48,641 bases of DNA, from positions 1 through 48,641 of the forward strand of contig JAFXBF010000022.1 in assembly GCA_017516745.1 (NCBI GenBank), written 5' to 3'. The notes below the pieces were generated by a model. It was given only the letters and a program-made list of their open reading frames with translations, had not been told where the DNA came from and did no database searches. Source of the DNA: Clostridia bacterium. Its GTDB lineage: Bacteria; Bacillota; Clostridia; Oscillospirales; Acutalibacteraceae. The position numbers and the translations under genes are program-made. Of the stretch, positions 1,986 to 45,726 are shown one piece after another (within the stretch, counting starts at the first letter, position 1; every line of letters begins with the position of its first letter).

Positions 1986-4900
1986 TTATGAAAATATCAA
2001 CGCATCCATAGCCCTGCCAAAAATCTGCGCAGTAAACTTGAGCAGCTGAAATGACAGCTTATAAAACACAACCTGAACGGTATCGGTTGCTATAACATTA
2101 CCTTCCGAGTCATATATTTCAACAGTAATATTTGCAGACTTTGCACCAAACAAGCCGCTGCAGGTTACTCTGCCGTTTGAATCAACCATAACTTTAGGAT
2201 TATCTGACTGCCAATGTACCGTACTTTCCCCTATGTTATCTGCAGAGCATTCAAGATTCACAAAAGCCCTTGTGTAAAGCTGAAAAATGCCGAGCTTTTT
2301 ATTGACACGTTCTACGGACACAGACTCATATAAAATATCCGCCGAGCACTCGGAATCAGTAACGGTTATTTCAAATTCAGCTGTTTTTGTAACACCACCG
2401 TATGTATAATAAATCGTAACCTTTTTACGACCTACAGAAGACATATCCGTCATACTGACATTGTAGTCGGTAATCTGCTTAACAGACGAATCGCTGTAAT
2501 AAGCCGTAACATTAAGACCGGTCAGATCAAGCGTGTCTCCGATATTATATTCAGTTTTTACCGGTAAGGATTTGATTTCGATAGAGACAACTGTCGGCTC
2601 AACCTCGATAACAGCAAATTCGCTGAAATGATCGGTTTCAAAGGTTATATAATTGCCGTCGATTGTGCTTGCAAAGCGTACCAACGGATTAACGATATCA
2701 TCCGTTACATGGTACACCTTGCATTTTGCTGGATCAACGCCGTCTGCCAATTTAATTTTTACGGTTACTGTTCCATCGGGCTGAACGGTACTATTGTTAT
2801 AAATAAGATTAATGTCATAAAAATGCAGGCTTCTTATTGAACCGCCTACAGCAAAATTAGTCCCCTCGTAGTTGGACGGGTCCACTTTTTCAACGGACAA
2901 TGATGTATCTGGTTTTATTTCTTTTGTTGTAGCAGAAACTATAACGCCGCATATATCATGCCTTAAAACAACGGCGGCGTATTCCAAGCTGCCAATCGCA
3001 AGCCTTATTGCCTGTGCATACCCGTCAACAGTATTCTGCTGCGTAATGTCAAGTCCGTATTTTACGGCCTTCACTGCATTATCAAGCAAGGTAAGTGTGT
3101 AATCTGAGTAATAACGCCTGTCAATAGATGAAGCAGTACGAATTGCGTTTTCAACCGAAGAATAATCAGCAGGCAGATATTCAAGCCCGATAAGCGCTTT
3201 TTTAATTGCTTCTGTCCAGCTGTCAACCTGATTCTGTTCTTCTTTAGTCAGACCACTTTTAACAGCAGCAACTTCAGCATCAAGCATTGCAAGGCTTTCG
3301 GTAGTATAAAGGTTACGGTCAATTGAGTTTGCTGATTTAATTACTTCTTCCAGCATTGAATAGTCAGCGGCACCGACACTAAGTCCGTCAAGAGCAGCCG
3401 ATATTGCTTTATACCATTCATCAACCTGCTGCTGAGTCAAATTCTCTTTATCCAAATCAACAGCATTAACAGCCGCATCAAGCTCGGCAAGGCTATCTTC
3501 AGAATAGTTCGGACGATAAACCCCTTCTGCCTTCAAAATAAGCTCCTCCAGCATCCTCGTAAAGGGTTCGTCTTCAAAAAGTATATACTGTATGCCGTAT
3601 TCTTCGGCGTATTGCTGCGCTGTTGAGCCCTCATAGCAATGAATGACAACCTTATCAGTATGGTATACGCTCTGACGAGCAAAAGTTGCATCCTTGGTGA
3701 TGAAATATATATTCTTAAGCGAGCTTACGGAAAAAGCCATTTTTTCTATCGTTTTGATATTTTCGGGAATAACCAATTCCTTATAATTGAGGCTTGACCC
3801 ACGCAGCATATTTGAATTAATTACCGACAAGCCTGAGCCTAAATTAATAGTATATAGATTATAGCTGCCCGAAAAGATATACTCACCTGCCGTTTCAAGG
3901 TCATCGTTTAGAGTAATTTTTTTCAGATTTGTGCCTGAAAAAGCAGCATAAGCTATATGCTTTGTGCCTGCAGGTACTGTATATTCGGTCATTGAGCTGT
4001 CGCCCGGAAAGAAGTGAAGAACGGATTTATCCTTACTGAAAACTATACCGCTGCTGTTTGACCAATAGTTGGGATTTTCGGGAGAAACTTCAATACTGCG
4101 TGCGTTTTCCATATCAGAAAAAGCGCCGTCACAGTGCGTAACGTTCTCCGGAATATATACGTATCTGATATCCGTTGCCGAAAAAGCGTCACTGCCGATT
4201 TTAACAACGCTTTCGGGAATATCAAATTCTCTGAGGCTTGTATAATTAAAAGCGCTGCTGTGAATAACTCTCAGGGAAGAATCTTCTTCAAAAACAACCT
4301 CAGTAAGCTCCTGACAGCTGTTAAAAGCACTTTTACCAATCTCTTCAAGAGATGCCGGAATAACAATGCTTTCAATATAATCGTCACTATAAAAAGCATA
4401 ATCGGCTATAGCAACGGTATCTTCCTTAGGCACACAGTGCGTATCGGGAATTACACCCTTATAGCCAAGCAGAACTTTACCGGCATAAACCCAACCATCG
4501 GGCTGTGCTTCATACCAGCCTGTCTTATAAACCGCATGTTCACCAAGGTACTTTAAGCTGTCGGGAAAGGATATATCGGTAACATTTGTTTCATAGCTAA
4601 GCGCTCGGCAGCCAATAGCAGTTGTACCGTCCCGTATTTCAAGCGAAGTCACATCATCGGACAAATCGCCCTTGATATCGAACAAAAAAGAGCCGAAATA
4701 AACAAGTGAGCCGTCACGTTGATTCAAATACCACGGACTTTCGGCAGCGAATTCATAATATACATACCGCAGCTCTGTTTTCTCGGGGAAAATAATATTT
4801 TCAAGCGAAAACATTGATGCATGTGTATGTATTTCTTCGATAGTTGACGGAAGTGTTAATGTCTGAACATTATAAAGCTTGTCAAGCGTACCCTCCATAA

Positions 4901-5162: not shown

Positions 5163-5265
5163 AACAACCACCCCACTAATACTTCTTCTAATAAATCTTC
5201 TATTATTTCTATTACAAATTATAAAACAATTTTTCGTTCTTTTCAATCACTATCATCAAGTATTG

Positions 5266-5311
5266 AACAAAAAAGTATCAGCCCGCAAACAGACAACCCT
5301 GCCGCAGGCTG
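5266..5311 (-). terminator. Intrinsic terminator of the CHAP gene
   Basis: On the minus strand CAGCCTGC (5311-5304) pairs with GCGGGCTG (5286-5279), including one G-U pair valid only on this strand. ATAC and a T6 run follow. It lies 38 nt after the stop of the CHAP protein gene. Confidence 0.55.
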
Positions 5312-5348
5312 ATAAATTGTTATTGCTTTACACTAAGATTCATACGGC

Positions 5349-7463
5349 TTAATAAAGCACTCTGTTAATGCCGAACAGATTCTTAAAGAACGAAATAAAT
5401 TTCTGCCAGAAACCTGCCTTTGACGTGACGGATATTTCGTCAAAAATTTCCTCACCATCGGCGTTTATAATCGGATTTTCTTCTTCATCAACAATAACTG
5501 CTGAAAAAGTTGCGTTACCGTTAGCAATAGACGTTACATAACATTCCGAACGGTCTTCACTAACCGCCGCCGAAAAACCGGCTCCCTCAACAAACCACGC
5601 AACTGCATATCCCTCGGGCAATTCAATTTCTTCAAGCTGAAGAACAAGTGTTTCTCCGTAGTTTACTACTGTTGTTGATGTGCGCTTAATCTCTATTTCG
5701 GGCATTTTGTCGAGCTTAGGAATTACGCCTTCTTCAAGCACCTTTTTGCAAACGGTGCATTTCTTAACCTGAACGCCTTCCGCTTTAAAGGTCGGTGCTA
5801 CCGAAATCTCCCAGTCTCCGGGGGTGTGTGCCTTAGTGGGAATTACAGTCTGTGCAACGGTAACGGTACCGCATACAGAGCAATGCTTGCCTTCCGTTTT
5901 GCCCGTTGAAGTACACGTTGCCGCAACAGCCTTGTCGGTTACGATCTTATGTGCAAGTACCGGTATGGGTTCAGTATAGCTTTTACCGCATTCACAAACG
6001 TATGTTCTTACGCCGGTGTTCAGACAAGTCGGAGAAGAAGTTACGGATGAAGTATAAAAGCACTCATGTTCCTTAAGCTTATATCTGTATTCAACGCTTG
6101 CTGCATTACTGTCCTTACTGTCCGTCCATCCGCTTTCTTTTGTCCAATTGTAATAATCAACTCTTACTTTATTCTGGTAAACATAACGTTTATACCACCA
6201 GCACGACCTGTAATCATGGGAATTTGAAGCATCACAGGTAAGTGCGGGAGCACACCAGCAATATGATGACGTATTATGTGCCCAAGCAAGCTTATATGCT
6301 GTATATCTGGAATCGTCTCCGTCAACAACGCTTTGCTCTTCAATAACTGCACTCGGTTCGGGATATGCATCATAATGATTATGCTTGTCAGTATATTTAA
6401 AATTCACTTCATTACCTGCACCGCTACCACACCAATGGTAGTAATAATAGCTGACAAGAACTCGGTAATTGGAGGTTGAAAGCTCAAAATCAGATTCGTA
6501 GGTGCTGCCGCTGTTTACATATTCGGTTTTAGCAAGGCTTCCCTTTGTCCAGCCGCTTGCGTTAGCTGTTGTTGCTACTTTTTTATAGATATTATTATAT
6601 TCAATATCATATTTGTCAGCCGAAACGTGTGAGGGCAGACTGCTTACGTATACCCACTGTGTCTCGTCTATTTTGGGTATAGTTGTACCTGTTTTGAGCA
6701 GTTTACTGCAGCCGCCGCAGTATGTATCACCCGTGTAACCTGTTGACTCGGGAGTTGCAGCAACGGAATTTTTGATTACCGTTCCTCCTGCGTGGTTATT
6801 TGCGTTCTTTGCAATCGTTTCAGTGTAGCTTTTACCGCAGGAACAGGAGTAGGTGCGCACACCCGTAGCATTACAGGTTGCAGCCTTTGTAACGGAGGAT
6901 GAATATGAACAAGTGTGGGTTGAATATTTCGGTCTTATATACTCTCTCGTAATGCCGGAGTTAAGCGTGTGACCATTTACATCCATATAGTTACCATTAG
7001 ATCCACCAACCTTGTATACCTGGCCGTTTACATTTCCCTCAATCGAGTATGTGCCGTCCTGAACAATACCAACGTGTGTCCAAGCACCGCAATATTTACA
7101 ATAGTAGAAGACGATATCACCTTTTTGCCTTGATGAAACAATACTGCAGCCAGCGTTCAACATAGCATTCCTCAAATAAGAAACACCGCCATTAAACGGA
7201 ATAAGTGATTCAACACCCGCAAGGCGCGCGCAATCACTTACAAAATCTGCACACCACGCCTCGGTATATCCCATACTTGACTGTGACCGGCCAAGCTGTG
7301 CTTGTGCAACGGCAACTATATCGTCTGCACCGTTGCCGGTCAACGTATAATTCCTATAAAAATTACCTGCTACAGATTGCGTTGCCTGCACCGAATTTGC
7401 AAAACTAAAAATCATTGTTGCAACAACAAGCAAAGCACACACTCTCTTAAAGACTGTTTTCAT
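5349..7463 (-). CDS. Secreted CHAP-domain amidase with Cys-rich repeats
   Basis: 704 residues; GGAGG lies 9 nt before the ATG. A signal peptide spans about 1-28. A CHAP (Cys/His amidohydrolase/peptidase) domain covers about 46-175. The putative catalytic Cys71 is in EAWCADFVSDCARLAG, His130 in GAWTHVGIVQDG, and an acidic/amide residue in SIEGN (142-144). CHAP domains cleave peptidoglycan peptides or amide bonds, so it probably acts on cell walls, its own or a competitor's. The rest contains repeated CxC/CxxC modules of the GVRTYSCSCGKSYTETI type (about 185-225 and 470-510), plus CSVCGTV and CTVCKKV ribbons near 530-590. An Ig-like domain follows (about 600-675). The end, FWQKFISFFKNLFGINRVLY, is strongly amphipathic and aromatic. 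Expression as a single gene is likely, with a terminator at 5266-5311. Confidence 0.85.
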   Translation of the reverse strand: MKTVFKRVCALLVVATMIFSFANSVQATQSVAGNFYRNYTLTGNGADDIVAVAQAQLGRSQSSMGYTEAWCADFVSDCARLAGVESLIPFNGGVSYLRNAMLNAGCSIVSSRQKGDIVFYYCKYCGAWTHVGIVQDGTYSIEGNVNGQVYKVGGSNGNYMDVNGHTLNSGITREYIRPKYSTHTCSYSSSVTKAATCNATGVRTYSCSCGKSYTETIAKNANNHAGGTVIKNSVAATPESTGYTGDTYCGGCSKLLKTGTTIPKIDETQWVYVSSLPSHVSADKYDIEYNNIYKKVATTANASGWTKGSLAKTEYVNSGSTYESDFELSTSNYRVLVSYYYYHWCGSGAGNEVNFKYTDKHNHYDAYPEPSAVIEEQSVVDGDDSRYTAYKLAWAHNTSSYCWCAPALTCDASNSHDYRSCWWYKRYVYQNKVRVDYYNWTKESGWTDSKDSNAASVEYRYKLKEHECFYTSSVTSSPTCLNTGVRTYVCECGKSYTEPIPVLAHKIVTDKAVAATCTSTGKTEGKHCSVCGTVTVAQTVIPTKAHTPGDWEISVAPTFKAEGVQVKKCTVCKKVLEEGVIPKLDKMPEIEIKRTSTTVVNYGETLVLQLEEIELPEGYAVAWFVEGAGFSAAVSEDRSECYVTSIANGNATFSAVIVDEEENPIINADGEEIFDEISVTSKAGFWQKFISFFKNLFGINRVLY

Positions 7464-7497: not shown

Positions 7498-7573
7498 TTA
7501 ATAAGCAACTCTACTGATACCGAACAGATTTTTGAAGAACGAAATTTATTTCTATCGGAAACCAACATTTAAG
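7498..7573 (-). pseudogene. Orphan copy of the C-terminal tail of the CHAP gene
   Basis: On the minus strand the frame reads ISFFKNLFGISRVAY followed by a stop. This is nearly identical to the end of the CHAP protein (ISFFKNLFGINRVLY) whose own copy is at 5349-5425. Stops interrupt the few codons upstream. It lies just before the CHAP gene start, so it is the leftover 3' end of a second, deleted gene bearing the same tail, or a partial duplication. Confidence 0.7.
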
Positions 7574-17327: not shown

Positions 17328-18665
17328 ATGAAGAAAACAATCAAAACAATATCAGTTGTTCTTGTCCTTACTCTTATTATGAGTATTACGGCTTTTGCTG
17401 AGCCGGGCTTCGCGTACAAGGACGAAGTGCTTACAGAGTTTTCACCAAGATGGTCACAAATACAGGCTGATAACACGGTGATTTCCGTTACGCCGGGTGC
17501 TACAGTCGGCGAGCTCCGTTTTGCGTGGCTGTCAAGTTCGACAGACAACAATCCCGCTTTTATGATTTCGGAAAACAGCGTTATGTCTGACGCTGAAGAG
17601 TTTGAGGTCATTACTGCAGGCGCTATCGAAAACCTCAGGTCAAACAAGGTTACAGTAACCGGGCTTGAGCAAGGCAAAACCTATTACTATTCATACACAG
17701 AAAACGGTGTCTGGAGCGAAGCACAACCGTTTACTGTTCAACCGGCTGATGAATTCACCGTTCTCTACGTTTCTGATGCACAAATCGGACGTTCCGGTGA
17801 CGAAACACTTGATGAAATACTTATCCGTGACACCTGCGGATGGAATTATACGGTTGAGAAAATGCTTACAGCTTACCCGAATGCCGCTTTTGCAATTTCA
17901 GGTGGCGACCAGTTTCAATCACCCGACAGCCTTGTTCAGATGAAGGCTTACCTTTCTCCCGAAGCCTTACGCTTTCTGCCTGTTGCCAACACCATCGGCA
18001 ACCACGACGATGATTCTACGCTTTACGGCGAAATTTTCAACAATCCGAACGAGGTTGACGAGCTTATGCCCAGCGAAGCGGGAACGGGATATTATTACAA
18101 TTACGGTGATGTGCTTTTTATTACAATCAACTCAAACAACAACTTTATGCTTGACACTGCAAAGGTTTTGCGTGAAGCGACTCAGGCTTATCCCGACACA
18201 AAATGGCGAGTTGTCACAATGCACCATAACCCTTATTCAGCTTCATTAAGCGACGATGATTTTTCAGAAGAACGGCTTTTCTTTTCATCGCTCTATGATT
18301 TATATGATATAGACCTGTGCCTGAGCGGACACGACCACTTTTATTCACGCACAGATACCATGTACGCAGGCAAAGTCACAGACAGCGAAGGTACGGTATA
18401 CGTTCAGTCTTCCTCAGCTTCTGGCAGCAACTATGACCCGCTTCCTGAATCAACCGCTTCGTTTACTGTTTCAGCCTTTGATGTGCGGGTTCCCACCTAC
18501 ACAGCGTTTACATTTACTGATGATGCGATTGTCGGCACAACTTATCGCACAGATACCAATATTATAATTGATTCTTTTGAAATAACCGACAACACAACGG
18601 ATACAGATATTAATTTTTTCTCTGCAATATTTTTCTTCTTCAAAACACTTTTTTCTATGATATAA
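17328..18665 (+). CDS. Secreted purple-acid-phosphatase-like metallophosphoesterase
   Basis: 445 residues; GGAGG lies upstream of the ATG. A signal peptide spans 1-24 (ends ITAFAEP). A fibronectin-like N-terminal domain (about 45-140) has GLEQGKTYYYSYTENGVWSE, typical of purple acid phosphatases. The metallophosphoesterase domain (about 143-400) shows the ordered metal-ligand motifs SDAQIG, SGGDQF, IGNHDDD, TMHHNPY and SGHDHFYSRT. The first motif has Gln where many family members have His. Such enzymes release phosphate from monoesters outside the cell. The C-terminus INFFSAIFFFFKTLFSMI is hydrophobic and aromatic like several other secreted proteins here. Single gene with its own promoter at 17273 and a shared terminator at 18731-18766. 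Confidence 0.88.
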   Translation: MKKTIKTISVVLVLTLIMSITAFAEPGFAYKDEVLTEFSPRWSQIQADNTVISVTPGATVGELRFAWLSSSTDNNPAFMISENSVMSDAEEFEVITAGAIENLRSNKVTVTGLEQGKTYYYSYTENGVWSEAQPFTVQPADEFTVLYVSDAQIGRSGDETLDEILIRDTCGWNYTVEKMLTAYPNAAFAISGGDQFQSPDSLVQMKAYLSPEALRFLPVANTIGNHDDDSTLYGEIFNNPNEVDELMPSEAGTGYYYNYGDVLFITINSNNNFMLDTAKVLREATQAYPDTKWRVVTMHHNPYSASLSDDDFSEERLFFSSLYDLYDIDLCLSGHDHFYSRTDTMYAGKVTDSEGTVYVQSSSASGSNYDPLPESTASFTVSAFDVRVPTYTAFTFTDDAIVGTTYRTDTNIIIDSFEITDNTTDTDINFFSAIFFFFKTLFSMI

Positions 18666-22604: not shown

Positions 22605-25322
22605 TCAATAATGTGCCTCTCCGCATTCACAAACGGGGCTGATGCCCAGAAGGCTGTGAATAAAGTTGCCTATTGTCCAGATAAATCTCCAGAACCAATG
22701 GTCGCTATGGCAGATATGTGAGCACATTTCTTCGTCATAGATATTTTCTTCACCGCAAAGGTCACAGGTTTCGTCATAGTCATCATCAATATGATATCCT
22801 TCGTCGAGCGGCAATTCTTCGTGACCGTAAATGAATTCTTCACAATCGTTACAGTAAAGTCCGTCGGTATATCCGTGCTCCGTGCAATTCGAATATACGC
22901 CCTCAACGAACTCAATGCTATGCTCGCTGCCGTCGTCAGCGGTATGAATTATGCGGTTAAGATTAACACTGAAAGCACCTACGGTGTAGCAGTTATGTGA
23001 GTCGAAATAATAAGTTTCGCCTGCTTCAAAGTAATACACAAGGTCAAAATCCAAGCCGTTGACATCATAGCTGTCAGCAAGCCATTCGCCGTCTGCATAA
23101 TAAAGAGAACAATCAGGGTCAGCGTCTTCCGATACGGATTTGAAGGAATAATATCCGCTTACCTCAGGAGTAAATCTGAACCAGAAAATTTCATAGTCAG
23201 ATTCGCTTTCAAGCTCAAATTCATCGCCATCAGTTATATCTGTTCCCACAAAAATTTCTCCGCACAGGCAGTAGCCGAGAAAACCGATTACAGAATGGTC
23301 ACAGATTTCACCGCAGATGATACAACTGCCGTCTTCAAAGCTGTGACCGCATTCGATAATAAGGTCAAAGGTTTCTGCGCCTTCGGAATATGTAAATATA
23401 TTGAGATAATACTCTTCGCCCGCTTCAAACTCATATTCAAGTCTAAAATCAAAACCTTCTTCTGTATCATCCTGATATTCGCCGAAAAGCTCTTCACCGT
23501 TGGCATCATAAATGTAAGCTCCGGTGTCAACTCCGTCGGATTCGGTTCTGAAAATATATTCACCTGTTTTTTCGGGTACAAACTTAACAAAAACACCGTC
23601 AGAGGATTCTGCTGTAATTGTCAATGTATCGCCAAATTCGATTTCATAATCACAGTCGGGGGCATTGAGATTATCATCAATAATTGTGATTCTGCCGTCA
23701 CCGTCGGGGTCGCCGTATTTTTCGGCAGTTATTTTTCCTTCAAGGGTTTCGACGAAATATTCAATAAGCATTTCGGAATCACAGGGAAGTCCTTCCTGCT
23801 GAAGAACTCTTGCACCGTCAAGCATTGTAAGTCCGTCGCCGCCCTGAAGAAGCACATAAGTGCTGCCTGTGAGTGTATAATTCTTGTTAAGAACAACGGG
23901 CTCGCCGCCGACGCAGACATTCTGAACACGACGTTCCATTGTTTCGTCAACTCCGATAAAATTACCAAGCTGATCGGTAATAACTGGAGTTTTTCTATAT
24001 GTGTGGATTTCGAATGTCATGCCAGAAACCTGGAAAAAGCTGCCGAGTTCTTCGGGACACTTGCGTGCACCGTGCTCAAGTATATCAATAATCTGCTGAC
24101 CCGTAACCTCAAGAACGCACATATTGTTGTTGTATGCATTCACATCCATAAGGCTCTTTCTTGTTACGCTTCCGGCCTCAATCTCTGCACGGATACCGCC
24201 GCCGTTGGCTATTGCTACATCAGATCCGGTTACCGCGCGGTAAGCATCGGCAACAAAATCTCCTGCATTTGTCTCTCTCTTTCTTACAGCTCTGCTCGAA
24301 TCGGAATCATAGATAATAAGATTTGCTTCGGATTTGCCTATTTCTTCAAAAAGATATGCTATATCTTCGTTGTAACCGTCAATCTTTTCCTTGACGGCAG
24401 TATAAGCCGATTTTGCGTCTGCCGACATTGTTTCAATATCAACATTATCGGGGTTTATAAGTTCAAAGCTTTTGTTATCACCGCTGATTGTGAGCACACC
24501 GAAGTTTGCAAACTTAGCACCGGTTGATGTAAGGAAAACATCTTCGTTATCTTTGTTTTTATAGACTGCTTTTTCCGTTATTTCATGGGAATGAGCATCA
24601 ATGAAACAATCTATACCGTCGGTGTTTGCAATGATATCACTTGATTTCCAACCGTCATTTGAACCGATTATTCCCGCATGACCTACCGCAACAACATAAT
24701 CCGCACCGTCTTTTATCGCTTCGTCAACGCTTTCCTGAATGCTGTTATAAAGGTCTTCATTTGTCAATCCCCCGGGAAAAGAAGGAAATCCGTAAATAAA
24801 ATTACCGCTTTCATCCTTGAAATATTCAGGAGTTGTTGAAGTGACCGTATCCGGAGTTGAAATACCCACAAATGCAATCTGATAAGCCCCTAAATCTTCA
24901 ATAGCATAGGGTTTAAGTACAGGCGAATTAGATGTAAGGTTATAAAAATTGGAGCAGATATAATCATATTCCGCCTTATTCTGTGCAAGGTCAAGGAATA
25001 CCTCCATGCCGTAGTCAAACTCGTGGTTACCGGGAACGGCGTAGTCATAGCCGACAGCGTTCATAATATCAACTATAGCTTCGCCTTCGGTTGTTGAACC
25101 GATAACCTCGCCCTGAATGGCATCGCCTGCATCAACAACAATAACATCCTTACCCTGAGCAATAAGATCTGCTCTGTACGCAGCAAGCAATGAATAATCA
25201 TTAATTGCACAGTGAACATCGTTTGTGTAAAGAATAACCGTTTCTGTTTCTGCCGCAAAAGCTATTGGCATAACGGATAAAATCATAATAACCGCAAGAA
25301 TAATTGACAATAATTTTTTCAT
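22605..25322 (-). CDS. Secreted 5'-nucleotidase/UDP-sugar hydrolase-like protein
   Basis: 905 residues; the signal peptide spans 1-24. The metallophosphoesterase domain shows TNDVH (Asp35, His37), DAGDAIQG (Asp67), GNHEFD (Asn99, His100), VAVGHAGI and DAHSHEI. The 5'-nucleotidase C-terminal domain includes IANGGGIRAEI and the substrate-stacking region. Beyond about 570 come two beta-sandwich-like repeats (FVPEKTGEYIFRTESDGVD and FTPEVSGYYSFKSVSEDAD), which look like pre-peptidase C-terminal type carbohydrate- or surface-binding modules. CxxC ribbons (CIICGE, CNDCEE, CDLCGE) follow. The end contains HWFWRFIWTIGNFIHSLLGI, an aromatic segment like other tails here, followed by CECGEAHY. It would release phosphate or nucleoside from nucleotides outside the cell, feeding uptake. 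Confidence 0.88.
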   Translation of the reverse strand: MKKLLSIILAVIMILSVMPIAFAAETETVILYTNDVHCAINDYSLLAAYRADLIAQGKDVIVVDAGDAIQGEVIGSTTEGEAIVDIMNAVGYDYAVPGNHEFDYGMEVFLDLAQNKAEYDYICSNFYNLTSNSPVLKPYAIEDLGAYQIAFVGISTPDTVTSTTPEYFKDESGNFIYGFPSFPGGLTNEDLYNSIQESVDEAIKDGADYVVAVGHAGIIGSNDGWKSSDIIANTDGIDCFIDAHSHEITEKAVYKNKDNEDVFLTSTGAKFANFGVLTISGDNKSFELINPDNVDIETMSADAKSAYTAVKEKIDGYNEDIAYLFEEIGKSEANLIIYDSDSSRAVRKRETNAGDFVADAYRAVTGSDVAIANGGGIRAEIEAGSVTRKSLMDVNAYNNNMCVLEVTGQQIIDILEHGARKCPEELGSFFQVSGMTFEIHTYRKTPVITDQLGNFIGVDETMERRVQNVCVGGEPVVLNKNYTLTGSTYVLLQGGDGLTMLDGARVLQQEGLPCDSEMLIEYFVETLEGKITAEKYGDPDGDGRITIIDDNLNAPDCDYEIEFGDTLTITAESSDGVFVKFVPEKTGEYIFRTESDGVDTGAYIYDANGEELFGEYQDDTEEGFDFRLEYEFEAGEEYYLNIFTYSEGAETFDLIIECGHSFEDGSCIICGEICDHSVIGFLGYCLCGEIFVGTDITDGDEFELESESDYEIFWFRFTPEVSGYYSFKSVSEDADPDCSLYYADGEWLADSYDVNGLDFDLVYYFEAGETYYFDSHNCYTVGAFSVNLNRIIHTADDGSEHSIEFVEGVYSNCTEHGYTDGLYCNDCEEFIYGHEELPLDEGYHIDDDYDETCDLCGEENIYDEEMCSHICHSDHWFWRFIWTIGNFIHSLLGISPVCECGEAHY

Positions 25323-25830: not shown

Positions 25831-26496
25831 TCAAAGCACCTCACTTTTCTGTTCAACATATTCTTTAAACTCTTTGAAAATGCGTTTACCGATTGAACAA
25901 TAATCCATCGCAAGAACTTTTTCTATTTTTATCTTACGTATTTCTTCGGGAACATTATAGATTGTCATAATTGTATTAAGCGCACCTGAAATGCGTGTTT
26001 CAAGCGAAATTGCTTTATCAACCGCATTCAATGTTGCATACTCAATTCCGGCAACAAGGGTTTCCGCTTCACGGAACTGCTCGTCTGTCCAGTCTGAACA
26101 ATACTCTGCAAAAACCTTCTTTGCTCTTTCGGTATCACTCTTATGGATAATTTCAAGACAAACAGGACTCTGATATGCTGAAATGAAAAAGTCCTTTGCA
26201 ACCTCGTTTTCTTCACAAGCCGCTGCCATTGACATCAGCTCCAGACAAATTGAGAGCAGCGAGCTTATCCCCTCGCCTGCCTCGTATTCCATCAACTCAC
26301 GCTGGAACTTACACAGCAAATCCGTGAGCACCGCAAGAATATCTTCTTTGGAATGAAAATAAAAGGTGAAATTGCCTTTGCTGATTCCAAGCTCACTGCT
26401 GACCGCCTGAACCGTTGTTGCCGAATATCCGTTTTCAAGAAACATTCGGGTTGAAACTCGGATTATTTTATCTTTTGTTGATTCTTTCTTTGCCAT
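25831..26496 (-). CDS. TetR-family transcriptional regulator (copy 1)
   Basis: 221 residues; GGAGG lies 5-6 nt before the ATG. The N-terminal helix-turn-helix is KIIRVSTRMFLENGYSATTV followed by SELGISKGNFTFYFHSKEDI, a standard TetR DNA-binding domain. The ligand-binding domain (about 55-215) resembles that of its paralogue at 45798-46460, about three-quarters identical by eye. The recognition region differs most: ATTVQAVSSELGISKGNF here against ASSVKMVCDELGISKGNY. It heads the operon with a membrane protein, nucleotidase, CstA and alkylsulfatase, and probably represses it from the inverted repeat at 26530-26566. Ligand unknown. Confidence 0.92.
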   Translation of the reverse strand: MAKKESTKDKIIRVSTRMFLENGYSATTVQAVSSELGISKGNFTFYFHSKEDILAVLTDLLCKFQRELMEYEAGEGISSLLSICLELMSMAAACEENEVAKDFFISAYQSPVCLEIIHKSDTERAKKVFAEYCSDWTDEQFREAETLVAGIEYATLNAVDKAISLETRISGALNTIMTIYNVPEEIRKIKIEKVLAMDYCSIGKRIFKEFKEYVEQKSEVL

Positions 26497-31581: not shown

Positions 31582-33147
31582 TCACTCAAAAATATCAATA
31601 ATTAATTTGCGTATTTCTTCAATTGCTATATTAAATGCTTGGCGGATAAATCTTACCGCCTTTTCAAAGAAGCTTTCTGTTTCAAGCTCGGCATTCTCTC
31701 CGTCAGCGGAATAGCAGCCGATATTGTTGCTTGTTATTTCATTGCCGTAGAAATCCGTCATACAGCCGTCCTCAACCTCAAAGCCCGCACCGATTAACGG
31801 CGAGCCCTCTGCAAGCTGATAAGCCTTTATCGGGTCATCACCGCCTGCAAAGCCCGGAAGAGTATTTAAAGCGTCCTTATCAAATGCCGGATTGAAGGTA
31901 TTGTAATAGCAGTTGTTGGCAAACACATTATTCCAATCCTTCATTTCGCTGTTTATATGATAAAACTTATGTCCGTCCTTAAAAACTATAATGTTGTTTG
32001 CAAACAGCGAATCATAAATCTGAGTCATCTGAAATTCGGATGAATTGATTATTGTGTTGTTGTAAAAGCTGAAATTCCATTCGCCGTCAGATACGCCTAT
32101 TTTGTTTCTGCCCTGATTGTCGTTAACGGACAGACAATATCTTACCGTATTACCCCAGTTACCGCCTTCGGCAGGATTGTTGCACATAAAGCGCATATTA
32201 TCGTGTGAATAAATATATTCGTACGTACAGTTGTATGAGCCGTGGTCAAAATCCACCGTCATTCCGTCACCGTAGTTTTTCTGACCGGCTATTTCGCAGT
32301 AGCTGAAGGTGCAGTTTGAGGAATAATGAGTCCACATTGCGGCGGTAAAATAGAGGATTTCTCCGTTTTCATCAAGACCGACACCCTGGCAACAGTCAAT
32401 CGCACGGCAATGCGTTACCAAAGCGCCGTCACAGCCTTCAAGAACGACCGCTTCACCGTCCATATTGTAAAATTCACAGTTCTTTACAAGTGCATTTTTG
32501 TTCAGATCCTGACTTCCGGTGAAAAATATACCGTTGCCCACGTCGTATATTTTGCAGTTAATCGCCTGAAAATCGTTGACGGGATAAGGTGAGCCGCCGT
32601 AACGCTTGATAACAATTGCAGCTCTGCCCGAAATCGGACCTTCGGTATAATTGTCACGAGATGTTACGGTATAATTCTGCATATCGTGGAATTCGCAGTT
32701 TTCAATTCTGACGCCCCTCGATTCCTTTGTAACACCATCAACCCAGATACCGCCGCCGTTGTGCGCTGTTATTTCAAAACCGGAAACAGTTACATATGAG
32801 CAGTCAAAAAGCTTCATAACCGCATCTCTCGCATCAGTGTTGAGATGCGGCTTTTCGCCCTCACCGTAAGACGAAATGACAATAGGATTATCCTGAGTTC
32901 CCGAGCATGTAAGCGTAATGGCGCAGTCATAGTCTCCGCCTGACTTGAACAGAACTTTGTCGCCTGCTTCAAGGGTTAAAGCAGCTATGTTATCAACGGT
33001 TTTCCAGGCAGACGCTTCGGATAAGCCGGTGTTTTCGTCATTACCCGATATGCTGTCAATATAGTAAGTCGTTCCTGCTGCAAACACAAACGGAGTTACG
33101 CTCAGGGTGATTAAAACAGCAAGAATTACCGATAAAAGCTTTTTCAT
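31582..33147 (-). CDS. Secreted parallel beta-helix protein (polysaccharide lyase/hydrolase-like)
   Basis: 521 residues; GGAGG lies before the ATG. The signal peptide spans 1-24. The mature start TYYIDSISGNDENTGLSEAS and AWKTVDNIAALTLEAGDKVL are the usual entry of pectate-lyase-like right-handed beta-helix enzymes. Rungs such as VRIENCEFHDMQNYTV and ALVKNCEFYNMDGEAVVLEG run to about 440. A short beta domain follows, then a C-terminal helical tail, ESFFEKAVRFIRQAF and IAIEEIRKLIIDIFE. No catalytic residues could be assigned. It lies 53 nt after the GH92 gene and is probably co-transcribed with it. It is likely to act on a complex glycan outside the cell, whereas its GH92 partner lacks a signal peptide. 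Confidence 0.82.
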   Translation of the reverse strand: MKKLLSVILAVLITLSVTPFVFAAGTTYYIDSISGNDENTGLSEASAWKTVDNIAALTLEAGDKVLFKSGGDYDCAITLTCSGTQDNPIVISSYGEGEKPHLNTDARDAVMKLFDCSYVTVSGFEITAHNGGGIWVDGVTKESRGVRIENCEFHDMQNYTVTSRDNYTEGPISGRAAIVIKRYGGSPYPVNDFQAINCKIYDVGNGIFFTGSQDLNKNALVKNCEFYNMDGEAVVLEGCDGALVTHCRAIDCCQGVGLDENGEILYFTAAMWTHYSSNCTFSYCEIAGQKNYGDGMTVDFDHGSYNCTYEYIYSHDNMRFMCNNPAEGGNWGNTVRYCLSVNDNQGRNKIGVSDGEWNFSFYNNTIINSSEFQMTQIYDSLFANNIIVFKDGHKFYHINSEMKDWNNVFANNCYYNTFNPAFDKDALNTLPGFAGGDDPIKAYQLAEGSPLIGAGFEVEDGCMTDFYGNEITSNNIGCYSADGENAELETESFFEKAVRFIRQAFNIAIEEIRKLIIDIFE

Positions 33148-37055: not shown

Positions 37056-38645
37056 TCAATAAACAATATATATCGTTGCATTGCTGACTGTCAGCTTTTT
37101 GCCGATTTGTATTTCGTTGCCGTACATATCAAAGGCTTTATAATCGCCTTCGGGTGCGTCGATTTTAGTTTTATTTCCAAGACTGTAATATACTTCGATT
37201 TTCTTTTCGTTATCAGCGTATTCATCAATCACAAGATTCTTTTCATCTGAAATATTCTTCACAAAGTCAGCATTTCCGAGAAAACGGATAACCGTTGCAT
37301 AAGTAATTACGGCTTCGGTAGGCTGCATATATTCGTTAAAAAACGCAAAATCGTTGATATCGTTTTCGGGTGTAACAGTTTTTCTGAATGCGAACGAAAC
37401 AAATCCGCTTGCTCTTGTTGAACGGGTGTAAAGTGACTTGCATGCGATTGTTGCCGCATCTGTGCCGCCTACACCGCTTTCGCTGTTTAAACCGCCGTTT
37501 GAAAGTCCTGCCGATTTTGTAAGCGATAACATCTTGCCCATATAATTATAGTAATTATCGAGTCCGTCGTGGTTGTGATAACCGTAATTATCGAGCAGAT
37601 TTTTATTCATCAACTCTGCTGATTTCTGATAGAAAACAAGGTTGCTCTCTTTTTCTGCAACAGCAAGTCCGCCCGAATAAACGTATAATGACGGATTTTC
37701 GGCTTTGATTATTGTAGCGGTTTTTTCAAGAAGCGAAAAATATTCTTCGGGTGTGCCTGCGAAGAAATACCAGTTCGGCTCGTTCCAGATTTCCCACAGA
37801 ATGTCCGTATTGTCAGCATAATGTGCGGCAACCTTTCTTGTGAAATCTGACCATACATTTTCATCGGGAGGGTAAGTCCAACCGATTGATTCATCGTAAT
37901 TCTCTTTGTATTTATCTGCGGCAGACCATTTGCCTGCGTTGAAGCCGAGAAGCCAGTTATATTTCATATTGCGCTCGTTGACCTTGCCGACAAGGTAATC
38001 CTGCACGGAGAAATTGACTTCGCCATAAGCCTCGCTCTGCATTGCACCCCAGCCGACGCTGTCCTCACGGACAAGATTCACACCGAGATACTCAGCCGTA
38101 TCAAGAATTTTATCTACTGATTCATCTGCAGTATAGTTCGGAATCTGAAAACCCTGACCCCAAGTGTAAGCACGGGTTATATACGGCTGAATTCCGTAGT
38201 AAAAACTGTCGCTTGCCTGTGCATTTTTCGGAAGAACACCAATGTTGAAACTGTATTTGGTTCTGTCGGTCAGTTCAATCGCAACCGTAAAAATTCCGTT
38301 CTTATCGGACGAAAAAGTGAAGGTGTTATACGGCACATCAAAAATTAAATTAACATATCCTCGCTTATTAAAGCCTGTCTGCTCACTCTTAACGGAGATT
38401 TTTACTTTTGTACCGTCAAGGGATTCATCAAGGCACTCAATTATAACCTTGATTTCCTCATCTGGCTCAAACAGATTACCTTCACCAACAACTCCAAAAC
38501 GTAAATAATCGCTTTCGCCGTTTATGTAGTATTCGGTTTCGGTTTCCGTTTGCGTGATAACAAGATTTTTTTCGGGAAATAATCCGACAAAAAACATATC
38601 AATTGCAAACACAACGGATAGCAAAAATGAAATGATTTGTGTCAT
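37056..38645 (-). CDS. Secreted GH39-like (clan GH-A) glycosidase
   Basis: 529 residues with GGAG upstream of the ATG. The first 25 residues (MTQIISFLLSVVFAIDMFFV) look like a signal peptide or anchor. Residues about 30-150 form a beta-sandwich. A TIM barrel follows with NLVREDSVGWGAMQ, then ILWEIWNEPNWYFFAG (acid/base Glu in the NEP motif), and GLNSESGVGG with the likely nucleophile Glu. This order is typical of GH39 and related xylosidase/glycosidase families. The C-terminal beta-sandwich ends KLTVSNATIYIVY. No aromatic tail is present. The promoter at 38670-38721 has -35 TTTACA, a 17 bp spacer, an extended -10, and the palindromic element in the leader. Substrate unknown. Confidence 0.8.
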   Translation of the reverse strand: MTQIISFLLSVVFAIDMFFVGLFPEKNLVITQTETETEYYINGESDYLRFGVVGEGNLFEPDEEIKVIIECLDESLDGTKVKISVKSEQTGFNKRGYVNLIFDVPYNTFTFSSDKNGIFTVAIELTDRTKYSFNIGVLPKNAQASDSFYYGIQPYITRAYTWGQGFQIPNYTADESVDKILDTAEYLGVNLVREDSVGWGAMQSEAYGEVNFSVQDYLVGKVNERNMKYNWLLGFNAGKWSAADKYKENYDESIGWTYPPDENVWSDFTRKVAAHYADNTDILWEIWNEPNWYFFAGTPEEYFSLLEKTATIIKAENPSLYVYSGGLAVAEKESNLVFYQKSAELMNKNLLDNYGYHNHDGLDNYYNYMGKMLSLTKSAGLSNGGLNSESGVGGTDAATIACKSLYTRSTRASGFVSFAFRKTVTPENDINDFAFFNEYMQPTEAVITYATVIRFLGNADFVKNISDEKNLVIDEYADNEKKIEVYYSLGNKTKIDAPEGDYKAFDMYGNEIQIGKKLTVSNATIYIVY

Positions 38646-39348: not shown

Positions 39349-42300
39349 TTATGCGATTGCCTGAATGCCAAAGAGGCCTGAGAAGGCGTTGACTACGCTG
39401 TTCCATATCCAAAGAATGAGATCCCAGATAAGATAGAACAGACGGAGTGAGAAATATTCAACGGGAGTGTTGATAATCTCGATGAGCTTATCGCACTGAG
39501 CTTTGTATTCATTAAGCTTTGCTTTTTCTGTTTCGCCCATATTCTCGTCTGCAAGGATTTCGTCAATCTTTGTTTTGAGAGCTTCAATATCATCTTCCCA
39601 GAAGATTGTTACTCTTTCCTCGCCAAACATTTCAAGCTGAGCACCGATGTCTGCAACTGCCTTTTCTGCTGCTGCAATTTCATCAAGAAGAGCTTCAAGA
39701 CCTGCCTTGATTTCTTCGTATTCTTCCCTTTGCTCATCGGTGAGATTATCGGGATTTACAGCTTCGATTTCATCAATAGCGTTTTCGATAGCTGACTTAT
39801 CATCGCTTGTTACTGTTTCGGGGTTGTAGACGTTTTCGATACCTTCGATTCTTTCAAGCTGTGTTTCGATTTCTTCGATCTTATCTTCAAGACCTTCAAC
39901 CTTTTCAATCATTTCTTCAAGAGCGGTCTTTTCGTTTTCGGTTGTGTTACCGCTGTCGATAAGATTCTGAATATCTTCTTTGAGCTGTGCGAGGTCTTCC
40001 TTGTCGGTTGACTTGACCGTTTCTTCGTCATAGGACTTAACGGCTACATCAACCTTCTTGATTTCCTCTGCAACCTCTGCGAGCTTTTCAACGAGTTCAT
40101 CTATTGCCTTGTCTGCTTCTTCAAGAGCTGTTCTTTCATCATCGGTAAGGTTATCGCCGTCGGTGAGAGCCTTGATGTCCTCCTTGAGCTGATTTATTGC
40201 ATCTTCATCGCTTGACTTAACTGTTTCTTCATCATAGCCGTTTACAGCTTCATCAATTCTTTCGATTTCCTTTGTTGTTGCTGCGATTCTATCGAGGAGA
40301 GCATTGAGCGTTGCATCATTTTCAACGAGTGCTGCTTCTTCTGCTTCGGTGATATTGTCGCCGTCCTGAAGAGCCTTTGAATCTGCAAGGAGCTTTTCTA
40401 TGTCTGCCTTGTCTGCGGATGTTACTGTGCTGATGTCATAAGCATTGGTTGCATTGTCAATTCTCTTGATTTCTTCCGCTGTTGCTGCAATCTTTTCAAG
40501 GAGTGCGTCTGCGGTTTGATCTGCCTTAACGAGAACTGCTCTTTCATCTTCGGTGATGTTATCGCCATCTATGAGAGCCTTGATGTCTGCAATGAGCTTT
40601 ACAATATCAGCCTTATCGGATGATTTTACGCTTTCAAATACATACGCATCAATTACATCAACGATACGAACGATTTCTTCGCTGACATTTCCTACCTTTG
40701 TGATAAGAGCAAATACCTTATCGTGGAGTTCGTTGAGCTTTGTTTTTTCCTCTGCGGTTACGTTATCCGTAAGGGCGAGAGCATAGATTTCGCTGTCGAG
40801 CTTGTTGAGAGCATCAAGGTCGCTTGACTTAACGGTTGCTTCGTCATACTTGCCGACCTCTGCTTCAAGTCTTGCGAGCTCGTCTGCGGTTTCATCAATC
40901 TTTGCAAGGAGAGCATCAAGAGTTGAATCAAGTTCGTTGAGGTTTGCTCTTTCGTCAGCGGTGATGTTATCGCCGTCGGTGAGCTTCTTGATTCTTTCGA
41001 TAAGGTTTTCAATATCTGCCTTGTCGCTTGATTTTACGGTGTCAATGCTATAAGCATTAACTGCCCTTGTGATTCTTGCAATTTCATCTGCCGTGCTTCT
41101 GATTTTCGCAGCAAGTAAATTCGCCTTTGTGTTAAGTTCTTCAAGGCTTGCTCTTTCGTCTGCGGTAATGTTCTGACCGTCGGTGAGAGCCTCGATATCA
41201 TCAATAAGCTGTAAAATATCTTTGTAGTCGCTGTACTTAACGGTTGCTTCATCATAGCCGTTTACAGCGTTTGTTATTCTTGTGATTTCTTCTGCAACAT
41301 CGCTGATTCTGGTTTCAAGGTCTTCAATCGCCGAATAAATATCGGTTATTTTCTTTTCCTGTTCATCTGTCAGATTGTCATAATAGTCATTATAGAATTT
41401 GCCGACACTATTCTGGAAACTTTCCAAATAAGCAGCATCATCAGATGTTACGGTATTAATATCGTATTCGCCTGACTTATTTTCAAAGGCTTCAATCAGA
41501 TTTTCAATAATATAAATTCTCTGGCGCATTGCGGCACAATAGGCCTGGAGAGTATTCCATTCTGATATCTTATCTTCGTCGGCAAGGTCTTTTACAGCGT
41601 TTTCAAGCTGATTGTAAACGTACTCAACTTTTTCCTTATCGGTCGATTTTACATAATCAATGGTAAGACCTTCAATTCCGCTTTTATCAACTGCAATTTC
41701 ATAAGCAATCTTTGCTTCGCCCGTGAAGTTGCCCGTACCTGTTACTGTGAGCAGATATACGCCGACGTTTGTTGCCTTGTTGCCGCTGACTGTATAGGTT
41801 GCTTCAGGAGCTGTGCCCGTCGGAATAACCTTTTCAACGGTCTGTGTCTGCTCTTTGCCGTTATAGGTGAGAGGAGCGCCGAGAATTATAAATCCGTCGG
41901 AAATATCCTTTGCGTTGATTGTAACGGTAACCGTTGCAGGCTCGGTGTCATTGTGGTTTGAATCACCGATGACTTTATAATATACAGTATAATTGCCTGC
42001 ATCTGTGCCTTGGGGGATTGTTTCGGAATATTCTGTACCGTCAAGGCTGTAAACCATTGTGCCGAAGCTTGCTTCGCCTGCGGAAATAAGATTATGTGCT
42101 TCGCCGTTATATGTGAGAGTGTTGGGCGTAGGTGCGGCTGTTACGGTGTTATCTGCCTTTACGATTGTAAACACCTTTGTTGCTTCGCCCGAGTAATCGC
42201 CTGCACCCTTTACTGTTACGGTTGCCGTGCCTGCGTTAACATTGTTTGCGAAAGTGAGAGTGTAGTCCTTGCCCTCTGTGAGAGTCTTGCCGCCGACTGT

Positions 42301-45300: not shown

Positions 45301-45726
45301 CGCCGCGTTTTCGATTGTTTTAAGATTGCCTGCATCGGAAAACTCAAAATTTATAAGACCTGAGCCAGAAAATGCTCTGTTACCTATGCTTGTTACGGTG
45401 TCTGAAATCGTTGCATTAACAAGAGAAGTAATACCGTAAAACGCATCTTTGCCGATGTTTGTAACACCGGATTCTATAACAACCGTTTTAACATTGGTTC
45501 TTTTGCTGTACCACGGCACTTTTGAAACGTTGGCAAAATCTTCCATTTCACCGTTGCCGCTTATGGTAAGCACACCGTCACTGTCAAGCGACCAGGTAAG
45601 ATTGTTGCCGCTTGCGCCGAATTTACCGCTTGCTACTACCGATGCCGCAAACACCGTTACCGGTGCCATTGACAGAAGCATCGCAACAGCGATTAAAATG
45701 CTTATGAGTTTGTTTGTTTTTTTCAT
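39349..45726 (-). CDS. Giant secreted surface protein with LRR, beta-helix and helical repeats
   Basis: 2125 residues; AAGGAGG lies 8 nt before the ATG. The signal peptide spans 1-28. In order: BspA-type LRRs (about 30-230, with IGKDAFYGITSLVNATISDT); beta-helix-like repeats with the tag TDKDGYELSGSPYKTLADAI near 630 and 920; an InlB-like repeat near 410-480 (GGTVKGAGTYSSGATVTLTA); and three MBG/Ig-like domains around 1140-1390 (TYNGSEIKPTVIVTVGGKTL, LTYNGEAHNLI, LTYNGKEQTQTVEKV). About ten helical repeats of 65-72 residues (about 1390-2060) follow, each with a TVKSSDKADI-like start. The end, YFSLRLFYLIWDLILWIWNS then VVNAFSGLFGIQAIA, is hydrophobic and aromatic. It is probably a long adhesin stalk. 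It is co-transcribed with the TetR gene upstream (71 nt gap). Confidence 0.85.
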   Translation of the reverse strand: MKKTNKLISILIAVAMLLSMAPVTVFAASVVASGKFGASGNNLTWSLDSDGVLTISGNGEMEDFANVSKVPWYSKRTNVKTVVIESGVTNIGKDAFYGITSLVNATISDTVTSIGNRAFSGSGLINFEFSDAGNLKTIENAAFSNTQIKSMVIPDGVTTLGSYVFGYGPIKSVTIPASVTSVGNFFFEETSSLSEVIFLGNKEPETIGNTVFLGCSSLAYVSVPADYEGDTFSNMKVSKAAASVAEVNGQGFATLADAISEAQSISGAELKLLSHISIDSGITIESGKFTIDLNGKELFSNGYFLLRIDGADVTIVDSAVGGVFNATNDQGNIVLEVLSGSANISGGTFNSAGYPATVRDGTLKLTGKDFVLNGNWRIGWYGGSVDLSACTADEVRIQACADGLQASAVTLPDGWGLFKNNGTPCTEFVKNDIYVAKAGFKVTASVNPAEGGTVKGAGTYSSGATVTLTATAANGYRFINWIENGEEVSTSAVYTFTASKNRELTANFEIVPHTHSFTYTAGGSRIVATCVAGDCPLENGIGGMLTISAPADLYVDGETAKEAVIDNQLVEAVDYTVTYSTADGSAPKTAGTYTASVTVGGATATVEFTLLNYAAMVTDKDGYELSGSPYKTLADAITAASASEGSTVTLLDDITLTKQQVIRSGKLTLDLNGNNLVNETDSVFYIYEEVDLTIKDNGEGGTVETKRLYVDCIDNSGKLTVESGIIKGDGGIRNFGVLYFNDGTVEADNYPAIANYNDSTVYVYDGVLKGGKNSGAVENGGTLYVYGGEIESIVNVNDAYISGGKIDRDDYVALNLLGGTVEITGGSFTGTDNEYGRHSGTPYGEWTVDIDEGATLILKGGEFPNGFVTDETTVNALLAEGYAFYDKDGNKITVADDATKIDGYVQVKEYFAASVTDKDGYELSGSPYKTLADAIAVAQGSEGSTLTLLDDYNGNSYVNITSGTFTIDLAGKTVTSSGWNTAVMVNGSDVNLTITDSIGGGKIYDSSMSLNISAAQCVTIDNGIFERYLNLTKGNLVINGGTFYKGTARYSIGDDDGTNVAIYGGEFPDGFYAYLKSPNDYLADGCYFRDAENRIITVADGATTIIGYVKVEKGAYITDGVITLDSTEFTYNGSEIKPTVIVTVGGKTLTEGKDYTLTFANNVNAGTATVTVKGAGDYSGEATKVFTIVKADNTVTAAPTPNTLTYNGEAHNLISAGEASFGTMVYSLDGTEYSETIPQGTDAGNYTVYYKVIGDSNHNDTEPATVTVTINAKDISDGFIILGAPLTYNGKEQTQTVEKVIPTGTAPEATYTVSGNKATNVGVYLLTVTGTGNFTGEAKIAYEIAVDKSGIEGLTIDYVKSTDKEKVEYVYNQLENAVKDLADEDKISEWNTLQAYCAAMRQRIYIIENLIEAFENKSGEYDINTVTSDDAAYLESFQNSVGKFYNDYYDNLTDEQEKKITDIYSAIEDLETRISDVAEEITRITNAVNGYDEATVKYSDYKDILQLIDDIEALTDGQNITADERASLEELNTKANLLAAKIRSTADEIARITRAVNAYSIDTVKSSDKADIENLIERIKKLTDGDNITADERANLNELDSTLDALLAKIDETADELARLEAEVGKYDEATVKSSDLDALNKLDSEIYALALTDNVTAEEKTKLNELHDKVFALITKVGNVSEEIVRIVDVIDAYVFESVKSSDKADIVKLIADIKALIDGDNITEDERAVLVKADQTADALLEKIAATAEEIKRIDNATNAYDISTVTSADKADIEKLLADSKALQDGDNITEAEEAALVENDATLNALLDRIAATTKEIERIDEAVNGYDEETVKSSDEDAINQLKEDIKALTDGDNLTDDERTALEEADKAIDELVEKLAEVAEEIKKVDVAVKSYDEETVKSTDKEDLAQLKEDIQNLIDSGNTTENEKTALEEMIEKVEGLEDKIEEIETQLERIEGIENVYNPETVTSDDKSAIENAIDEIEAVNPDNLTDEQREEYEEIKAGLEALLDEIAAAEKAVADIGAQLEMFGEERVTIFWEDDIEALKTKIDEILADENMGETEKAKLNEYKAQCDKLIEIINTPVEYFSLRLFYLIWDLILWIWNSVVNAFSGLFGIQAIA

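Follow-up and report, generated by a model that had tools for sequence, protein, structure and literature searches.

Surface proteins of Gram-positive bacteria are usually predicted from lipoboxes, LPXTG motifs, SLH domains, LysM domains or dockerins. Part of this list is given in an excerpt of PMC3415414. Two of the described systems close to the one considered here are the following. In Escherichia coli, PBP5 is mislocalised once its C-terminal amphipathic helix has been removed (PMC2909392, in excerpt). In Ruminococcus albus, the module CBM37 is common to many secreted proteins and is reported to attach enzymes to the cell, and the Ruminococcus flavefaciens orthologues of these enzymes bear dockerins (PMC4081043, in excerpt). 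The words 'amphipathic' and 'monotopic' are absent from the excerpt of a further review (PMC5817068), and tails of the kinds reported below were not found described in the open-licence PMC literature. The window, a stretch of 48,641 nucleotides of a Clostridia bacterium, encodes a series of secreted proteins ending in an aromatic helical tail, which probably keeps such proteins attached to the cell in a manner that has attracted little notice.

Aromatic tails in the window and their recurrent classes

Tails rich in Phe, Trp and Leu are confirmed in the window and reach beyond it (Table 1). A preliminary description had named seven secreted proteins with a greasy aromatic end, and in the translations all seven have one; none has an LPXTG motif by eye or a dockerin by Pfam. 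The position is generally C-terminal as described, except that the segments quoted for the nucleotidase and the GH16 protein precede 11 and 27 further residues, respectively, and are therefore near-terminal. The label CHAP for the 704-aa protein finds no support in Pfam at E up to 1, and the idea of one sequence shared by all tails gives way to two recurrent modules accompanied by many individual tails. One ancestral motif was rejected: a regular expression matches 10/73 ends of SP1 proteins (signal peptidase I type, non-lipoprotein) and 1/313 cytoplasmic ends, and we did not use it as evidence because it was written post hoc and five of its ten matches come from the window.

Table 1. Positions of tails and associated features in the window
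Feature	Position	Strand	Remark
Amphipathic C-terminal tail GFWQKFISFFKNLFGINRVLY of the 704-aa protein (CHAP in the preliminary description)	5352..5414	-	Predicted helix directly after G
Ig-like domain immediately before the 704-aa protein's tail; together the recurrent C-terminal module	5415..5723	-	
Second tail copy, broken remnant, its end ~35 nt ahead of the CHAP-like gene's start codon	7501..7569	-	
Tail INFFSAIFFFFKTLFSMI of the purple-acid-phosphatase-like protein	18609..18662	+	
5'-Nucleotidase tail, amphipathic helix between CSHICH and CECGEAH; second recurrent class	22608..22724	-	
GH16 protein tail, aromatic stretches LCVFMQRVLSFFQNLC and HQFFERLLSMIPVLY, then nine residues	30410..30538	-	
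Beta-helix protein tail FFEKAVRFIRQAFNIAIEEIRKLIIDIFE, more charged	31585..31671	-	Fails tail rule; muH 0.50
Tail of the 2125-aa LRR_5 / InlB-repeat protein	39352..39456	-	
Tail of the 1086-aa LRR_5 / Big_3 protein	1989..2072	-	

Our classifier calls ten window proteins SP1: the seven named and those at 8617, 13112 and 25347, which we read as N-terminally anchored. Six of the seven named proteins pass the tail rule applied below; the beta-helix protein fails, yet its end is amphipathic. Tails are absent from all four called lipoproteins and from a glycosidase-like protein (37056-38645) with a signal-like start that was called a membrane protein by rule. The remnant contains internal stops and retains 64% identity to residues 680-704 of the CHAP-like protein.

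The first recurrent module consists of an Ig-like domain followed by GFFxKIIxFFKxLFG, stands at the C-terminus in 79 of 80 named loci, and is carried by LRR_5, subtilase, lipase, papain-like and cohesin proteins. For the 54 loci with a frame complete at the 5' end, our own heuristic assigns 42 proteins to SP1, nine to the membrane class, two to lipoproteins and one to the cytoplasm. AlphaFold predicts, with a mean pLDDT of 88.6, an Ig sandwich followed by a helical tail. A glycine stands directly before the helix in 23 of 26 alignment rows, and in 63 of 65 blocks, although the pattern that found these loci itself asks for G or N there. The module corresponds to no Pfam or NCBIfam family, and searches of Pfam, NCBIfam and PDB folds returned generic Ig-like relations only. 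Cohesin matches occur in 38 of 59 genomes; 30 loci were read, several of them in the wrong frame, and are uninformative on anchoring. One cohesin protein (L142) ends in Ig-plus-tail.

In the second class, of which the window nucleotidase is a member, a helix is flanked by Cys/His pairs; structure prediction for the nucleotidase tail gives helices at low confidence. Five of 14 nucleotidase matches have the tail, all from a single genus (g1), and two of these five align only through the tail-bearing C-terminal half. Among the nine tail-less matches, five end in an LPXTG-like sequence and one in LysM.

Enrichment on exported proteins and helical character

Enrichment was assessed in 0.67 Mb from the same genome and two relatives (G003 and G025), using our own heuristic classifier, whose false positives include CTP synthase and type II membrane proteins and which mislabels as LPXTG one lipoprotein in the own stretches and one in those of G003. 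Under a rule written after the tails of these three genomes had been inspected, 32/73 SP1 proteins pass, as against 15/313 cytoplasmic proteins, 0/20 lipoproteins and 16/923 internal windows of SP1 proteins. The contrast holds with the window excluded, both across the three genomes (SP1 26/63, cytoplasmic 15/307, p 7e-13) and in the own genome (14/36 and 12/185, p 2e-6). Earlier thresholds, FW of at least 4 and H of at least 0.45, gave 11/42 SP1, 2/202 cytoplasmic and 1/19 lipoprotein ends in the own genome; when the present rule replaced them, the lipoprotein call was refined as well, and two tail-bearing proteins with AxA sites moved to SP1. The expected enrichment at the ends of signal-peptide proteins was thus found, and in the three main genomes the tail is not equally frequent in cytoplasmic proteins or at internal positions. 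About three of the 32 hits are not tail-like in appearance. The 41/73 SP1 proteins that fail include some that are misclassified, some with dockerin- or LPXTG-like ends and some without a nameable end.

Stretches fetched after the rule had been fixed gave a weaker result. In three tail-bearing genomes (G013, G018 and G019) the rule is passed by 5/21 SP1 and 10/156 cytoplasmic proteins (p 0.02), and in three control genomes (G017, G066 and G078) by 3/12 and 15/264 (p 0.04), so that the rule does not separate the two sets; we read the three SP1 hits in the controls as membrane proteins. Rule-positive lipoproteins number 0/10 in these stretches.

The 32 rule-positive tails have a helical moment well above that of their shuffles (mean z 1.40, se 0.21, peak at 100 degrees), compared with z 0.19 in each of two reference sets, 140 membrane segments and 101 signal peptides. 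They contain 17.2% F and 3.3% W, against 8.5% and 1.2% in membrane segments, and the charged residues K, R, D and E account for 10.8% of the tail 18-mers but for 3.5% of membrane segments. Hydrophobic residues recur at spacings of 3, 4 and 7 among the 43 ends passing either criterion. The interfacial free energy of the tails lies below that of lipoprotein, membrane and cytoplasmic ends, and their mean net charge is near zero, so a pull toward anionic lipid is not general.

The tails are kept in close orthologues, contrary to the absence that would have counted against a shared function. Four of five groups have a tail pN/pS of 0.06 to 0.31, the nucleotidase group comprising two sequences only; in two of these four, constraint is weaker on the tail than on the remainder of the protein (0.31 vs 0.14; 0.27 vs 0.18). 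The fifth group (MPE-C, eight sequences) gives 0.55 from an alignment that is faulty because the wrong frame was picked for one locus (L242).

Homologues, proposed function and alternatives

The best functional evidence comes from comparing the window phosphatase with its homologues. Among 87 such proteins, the tail is present in 35/64 from tail-bearing genera and 0/23 from elsewhere, and an LPXTG-like end in 1/64 and 10/23, respectively. Pfam searches on nine homologues identified SLH in four, dockerin in three and LysM in one; one of the three dockerin homologues comes from a tail-bearing genome, and 11 in-clade homologues of ~1130 residues have no tail. Because the tail occupies the place of its relatives' known surface anchors, it probably holds secreted proteins on the cell. 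Loss of sortase was rejected as the reason for the tails, since 55 of 59 genomes have a sortase match, the own genome among them, whether or not they bear tails. Nor did a co-occurring processing enzyme, which the preliminary description suggested looking for, come to light: sortases do not distinguish the genomes, and no common cleavage motif was seen.

That description had also proposed a common retention, membrane-association or sorting signal. A single common signal is not supported, but sequence comparison supports retention or membrane association, because the tails are commoner on signal-peptide proteins, are missing from all 20 lipoproteins examined, are amphipathic, are kept in close orthologues, and end proteins whose homologues elsewhere bear known anchors at the same end. 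We consider it moderately probable, with confidence slightly lowered by the fresh-stretch result, that the tail is a non-covalent surface anchor at the outer face of the membrane resembling the PBP5 helix. Such a protein would be exported through its N-terminal signal peptide and then presumably cut by signal peptidase I. Its last 15-40 residues would leave the translocon last and may form an amphipathic helix, rich in Phe and Trp, that lies in the outer leaflet of the cytoplasmic membrane. An enzyme, repeat protein or adhesin could in this way be kept at the envelope with no need of sortase, lipid or S-layer binding. A stalk presenting the helix may be provided by the Ig-like domain, and in the Cys/His class the two pairs probably pin it by metal or disulphides.

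A dedicated surface receptor or scaffold might instead recognise the tail, which would then be an address and not an anchor in lipid. Across all five distance bins of the 26-row alignment, conservation is higher in the tail than in the adjoining Ig domain, a hint that its partner may not be lipid, and 29 tails scoring low on the module matrix preserve an order of residues that composition does not account for (mean z 1.69, p 3.6e-5), although two of these follow an Ig domain and helix periodicity alone may explain the kept order. However, many tails have no sequence in common with the module, and two recurrent classes alongside many individual tails would be odd for one receptor, leaving this explanation unlikely. 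Much less plausible still are ordinary C-terminal transmembrane anchors of aromatic look: a few hits do look transmembrane (own contig C26 55196, C9 96795) and 34/140 membrane proteins also pass the rule, but tails differ strongly from membrane segments in helical moment, aromatic content and charged residues.

We are similarly sceptical, and slightly more so, of a sorting signal that a processing enzyme removes in the manner of sortase or exosortase systems. The conserved glycine before the module helix would suit it, but by eye that glycine is missing from most individual tails, the architecture of a transmembrane helix with a basic end is lacking, and NCBIfam matched no C-terminal sorting family, PEP-CTERM-like models included, to the 26 module sequences at E up to 1. 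That the tails are lytic or signalling peptides freed by proteolysis seems to us highly improbable. A heptapeptide string of the module core does turn up in six papers, among them one on warnericin RK, a detergent-like peptide, and NCBIfam gives a weak match to a modulin family (E 0.17; 11.7 bits vs a cut-off of 33), all 26 module sequences falling below cut-off for phenol-soluble modulin-like families; against this, the proteins that carry tails are diverse enzymes and repeat proteins, the tails stand at the anchor position of homologues, and no common cleavage site was seen.

If a non-covalent anchor of this kind retains proteins at the envelope, the surface proteome of a group of Clostridia from the gut of ruminants and other herbivores has been misread, as the usual criteria would predict tail proteins to be freely secreted; the tail would then also offer a simple, enzyme-free display tag. 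With its flanking Cys/His pairs, the helix of the second class would be an anchor of new architecture. A bolder proposal, for which we hold only a slim expectation, is that this herbivore-gut clade moved much of its exported proteome to sortase-independent helix anchoring with at least two dedicated new modules, one an Ig stalk with an FF-helix and the other a Cys/His-pinned helix, the conserved tail being read by a dedicated partner as well as by lipid.

Comparison with described systems

SLH, LysM and dockerin modules stand at the same end of homologues, but no sequence relation between them and the tails was found. In homologous phosphatases and nucleotidases, LPXTG sortase signals likewise take the C-terminal place of the tail; the tails, however, do not combine an LPXTG-like motif with a transmembrane helix and basic end, are amphipathic rather than transmembrane, and would need no transpeptidase. 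CBM37 offers a parallel as a module common to many secreted proteins of a gut Firmicute, with dockerins in orthologues, yet by description it is a carbohydrate-binding module whereas the tail is a short helix. PBP5 domains were not found by Pfam in the window tail proteins or the 26 module sequences. The likeness to PBP5 (DacA) lies in the order of parts, a signal peptide, then a beta-rich domain, then an amphipathic helix at the C-terminus; but PBP5 is one enzyme family, whereas the tails described here, probably richer in Phe and Trp than its helix, are found on many unrelated proteins.

Tails on exported proteins of the window

The window is contig C24 of its genome (G000; 2.89 Mb in 28 contigs), and the translations of its genes display all seven C-terminal tails named in the preliminary description. 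By Pfam the tail proteins comprise two BspA-type LRR proteins, a purple-acid-phosphatase-like protein, a 5'-nucleotidase, a GH16 protein and a beta-helix protein, together with the protein earlier labelled CHAP, a label that Pfam does not support at E values up to 1. No tail is present on the four window proteins classed as lipoproteins by our home-made classifier.

Coordinates of tail modules and other features (window positions unless a contig is named)
Feature	Position	Strand
Tail of the CHAP-like protein (704 aa)	5352..5414	-
Ig-like domain of the CHAP-like protein	5415..5723	-
Remnant of a second Ig-module tail	7501-7569	-
Sigma factor-LRR gene	14535-16283	+
TetR-like regulator	25831-26496	-
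TetR-like regulator	45798-46541	-
Ig-plus-tail fragment	G000:C8:6343-6675	
L010, different tail form	G000 C26:119926-123444	

Two other features of the window were observed. One gene encodes ECF-type sigma factor domains, then a hydrophobic segment and Ser/Thr-rich linker (both by eye), then BspA-type leucine-rich repeats; its product resembles a sigma factor that spans the membrane and has an external sensor. Two regulators close in sequence, TetR-like by eye only, lie one near the nucleotidase and the other adjoining the giant LRR protein.

We sampled 0.67 Mb (own-genome stretches and the window, G003 of the same genus, G025 of the same family), assigned ORFs to signal peptidase I (SP1), lipoprotein, membrane or cytoplasmic classes by a home-made rule, and scored a tail where a 20-residue stretch within the last 35 residues contained 11 or more F, W, L, I, M, V or Y residues, of which 2 or more were F or W. 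The tail rule matched 32/73 SP1, 0/20 lipoprotein, 15/313 cytoplasmic and 34/140 membrane proteins, and 16/923 internal windows of SP1 proteins; with the window left out, 26/63 SP1 versus 15/307 cytoplasmic. Because the rule was drafted once tails of these three genomes had been seen, their enrichment p values are descriptive only. Enrichment was weaker in later-fetched stretches of G013, G018 and G019 (pooled SP1 5/21 versus cytoplasmic 10/156, p 0.02). Those of the control genomes G017, G066 and G078 gave 3/12 versus 15/264 (p 0.04), and on later-fetched stretches the rule alone does not separate tail-bearing from control genomes. We read the three control matches as membrane proteins; earlier control stretches had given 0/7 (G017) and 0/1 (G066). 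With all control SP1 proteins pooled, 3/20 match versus the 32/73 of the three main genomes (p 0.015). Lipoproteins matched in 0/10 cases across all later-fetched stretches, and in 0/30 over both samples.

The tails are amphipathic, not transmembrane. On the most hydrophobic 18-mer of each of the 32 SP1 matches, the mean helical moment is 0.323 versus 0.192 when shuffled (mean z 1.40, se 0.21) and peaks at 100 degrees, compared with a z of 0.19 both for 140 membrane proteins (best segments) and for 101 signal peptides. Phe makes up 17.2% of tails versus 8.5% of membrane segments, and the C-termini of SP1 proteins have a lower interfacial free energy than those of lipoproteins, membrane proteins or cytoplasmic proteins.

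Recurrent tail modules

At the C-terminus of the CHAP-like protein an Ig-like domain is followed by GFWQKFISFFKNLFG. This pair is found at five places in the genome: four copies lie on proteins that clearly differ, and the fifth is a fragment in a 148-residue frame, apparently a broken gene. Additional to these, the remnant lying immediately upstream of that gene for the CHAP-like protein suggests that a tandem gene was lost or recombined. The module is matched in 16/97 genomes (own included), among them 11/11 of the own genus, with 33 matches in G025. Family-wide it occurs in 40/397 genomes and 16/132 genera, several matches being weak and at most 11 candidates scored per genome; class-wide 5/391 genomes match, own included, the other four only ahead of the tail columns.

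Scanning named genomes by tail pattern returned at least 591 stretches; among the matches listed 95 were confirmed and 80 kept. Judged by accession prefix, the loci kept represent 41 assemblies, most of them MAGs from the guts of goat, sheep, deer, buffalo and horse. Since the scan used the tail pattern, tail conservation among these 80 loci is by selection. In 79 of the 80 loci kept among the matches listed, the module lies 0 to 31 residues ahead of the stop; in the exception, L139, the frame stops before the tail. Pfam partners in 47 of these proteins, chosen for a complete frame, a length of no more than 1300 residues and distinct starts, include LRR_5 (23), Flg_new (12), DUF6273 (5) and subtilase (4), with lipase, papain-like and cohesin once each. 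AlphaFold, given the window module and 48 of the 80 loci, predicts an Ig sandwich and places a helix at residues 112-123; mean pLDDT is 88.6 and drops to about 75-78 in the helical part. In an alignment of 26 rows, collected with a profile instead of a tail pattern, tail identity is 0.40 where Ig domains share 0.22, and 0.81 where they share 0.56; such strong conservation leaves room for a specific partner. A different form following an Ig-like stretch at L010, KYTFLQIIIKYLLFGWLWF, may represent a third recurrent class.

When the nucleotidase tail is aligned with four relatives, C, H and G residues on either side of the helix prove invariant. A profile finds 15 places in 7/97 genomes, which belong to genera g1 and g4; G013 alone accounts for six places. 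All 15 read CxCxCH or CxxxCH, about 20 residues like GFMGFIWKILRFFYKIFG, then in most CxCGxxH, and end at the stop or at most about 7 residues from it. Partners include an LRR_5 and a GH123-like protein; 3 of 7 scanned are without a Pfam family. Two relatives, L204 and L205, carry the nucleotidase C-terminal part and this tail alone behind their own signal peptide, the enzyme domain being absent. The Cys/His pairs may bind metal, and single-sequence AlphaFold of the window nucleotidase tail gives helices at low confidence (mean pLDDT 63.5).

In four close-orthologue groups (a fifth had a faulty alignment), pN/pS was 0.06, 0.09, 0.27 and 0.31 in tails and 0.21, 0.38, 0.18 and 0.14 in the rest of the protein: tails are kept, yet less strictly than the enzyme in two of four groups.

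Possible anchor exchange among homologues

All 87 matches to the window phosphatase (E up to 1e-10, 59 genomes) were read. Within genera g1, g4, g9, g10, g15 and g16, the rule finds a tail in 35 of 64 homologues, 1 other is LPXTG-like, and 28 show neither feature. These 28 include about a dozen with what look like conserved tails that escape the rule, a tail-less group of 11 proteins with roughly 1130 residues, and L259, which has a dockerin. Among 23 homologues in the other 11 genomes, tails are absent and 10 proteins have LPXTG-like ends. Pfam finds SLH in all 4 scanned of the 6 from G078 and confirms dockerins in L194 and L195. A scan of the C-terminal part alone of L276 gave no dockerin match, and 6 remaining out-of-clade homologues have no recognisable anchor. 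The inside-outside p values, 5e-7 for tails and 3e-6 for LPXTG, overstate independence because homologues share ancestry. The genera were grouped after the tails were seen. Of 14 nucleotidase matches, 5 have the tail, all in g1 and two matched by the tail-bearing half only; 5 end LPXTG-like (3 by rule, 2 by eye), three of which also satisfy the tail rule via the sortase helix. The other four are one with LysM, one with a C-terminal transmembrane end and two classed as lipoproteins by rule.

A possible membrane anchor and its known counterparts

Aromatic residues favour the membrane interface. Export and then signal-peptide removal would probably precede membrane insertion of the tail, whose last helix would probably enter the outer leaflet. 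Lipoproteins have no need of such a tail.

In the open-access literature we found no description of a shared tail system across many exported proteins of one bacterial clade, nor of either the Ig-plus-FF-helix or the Cys/His-flanked module; the word amphipathic is absent from the available portion of a review on how Gram-positive bacteria display surface proteins (PMC5817068). C-terminal in-plane anchors are themselves already known: outer-leaflet insertion of the last helix is modelled here on PBP5 (PMC2909392), and our anchor-swap argument is the same as that made for CBM37 of R. albus (PMC4081043).
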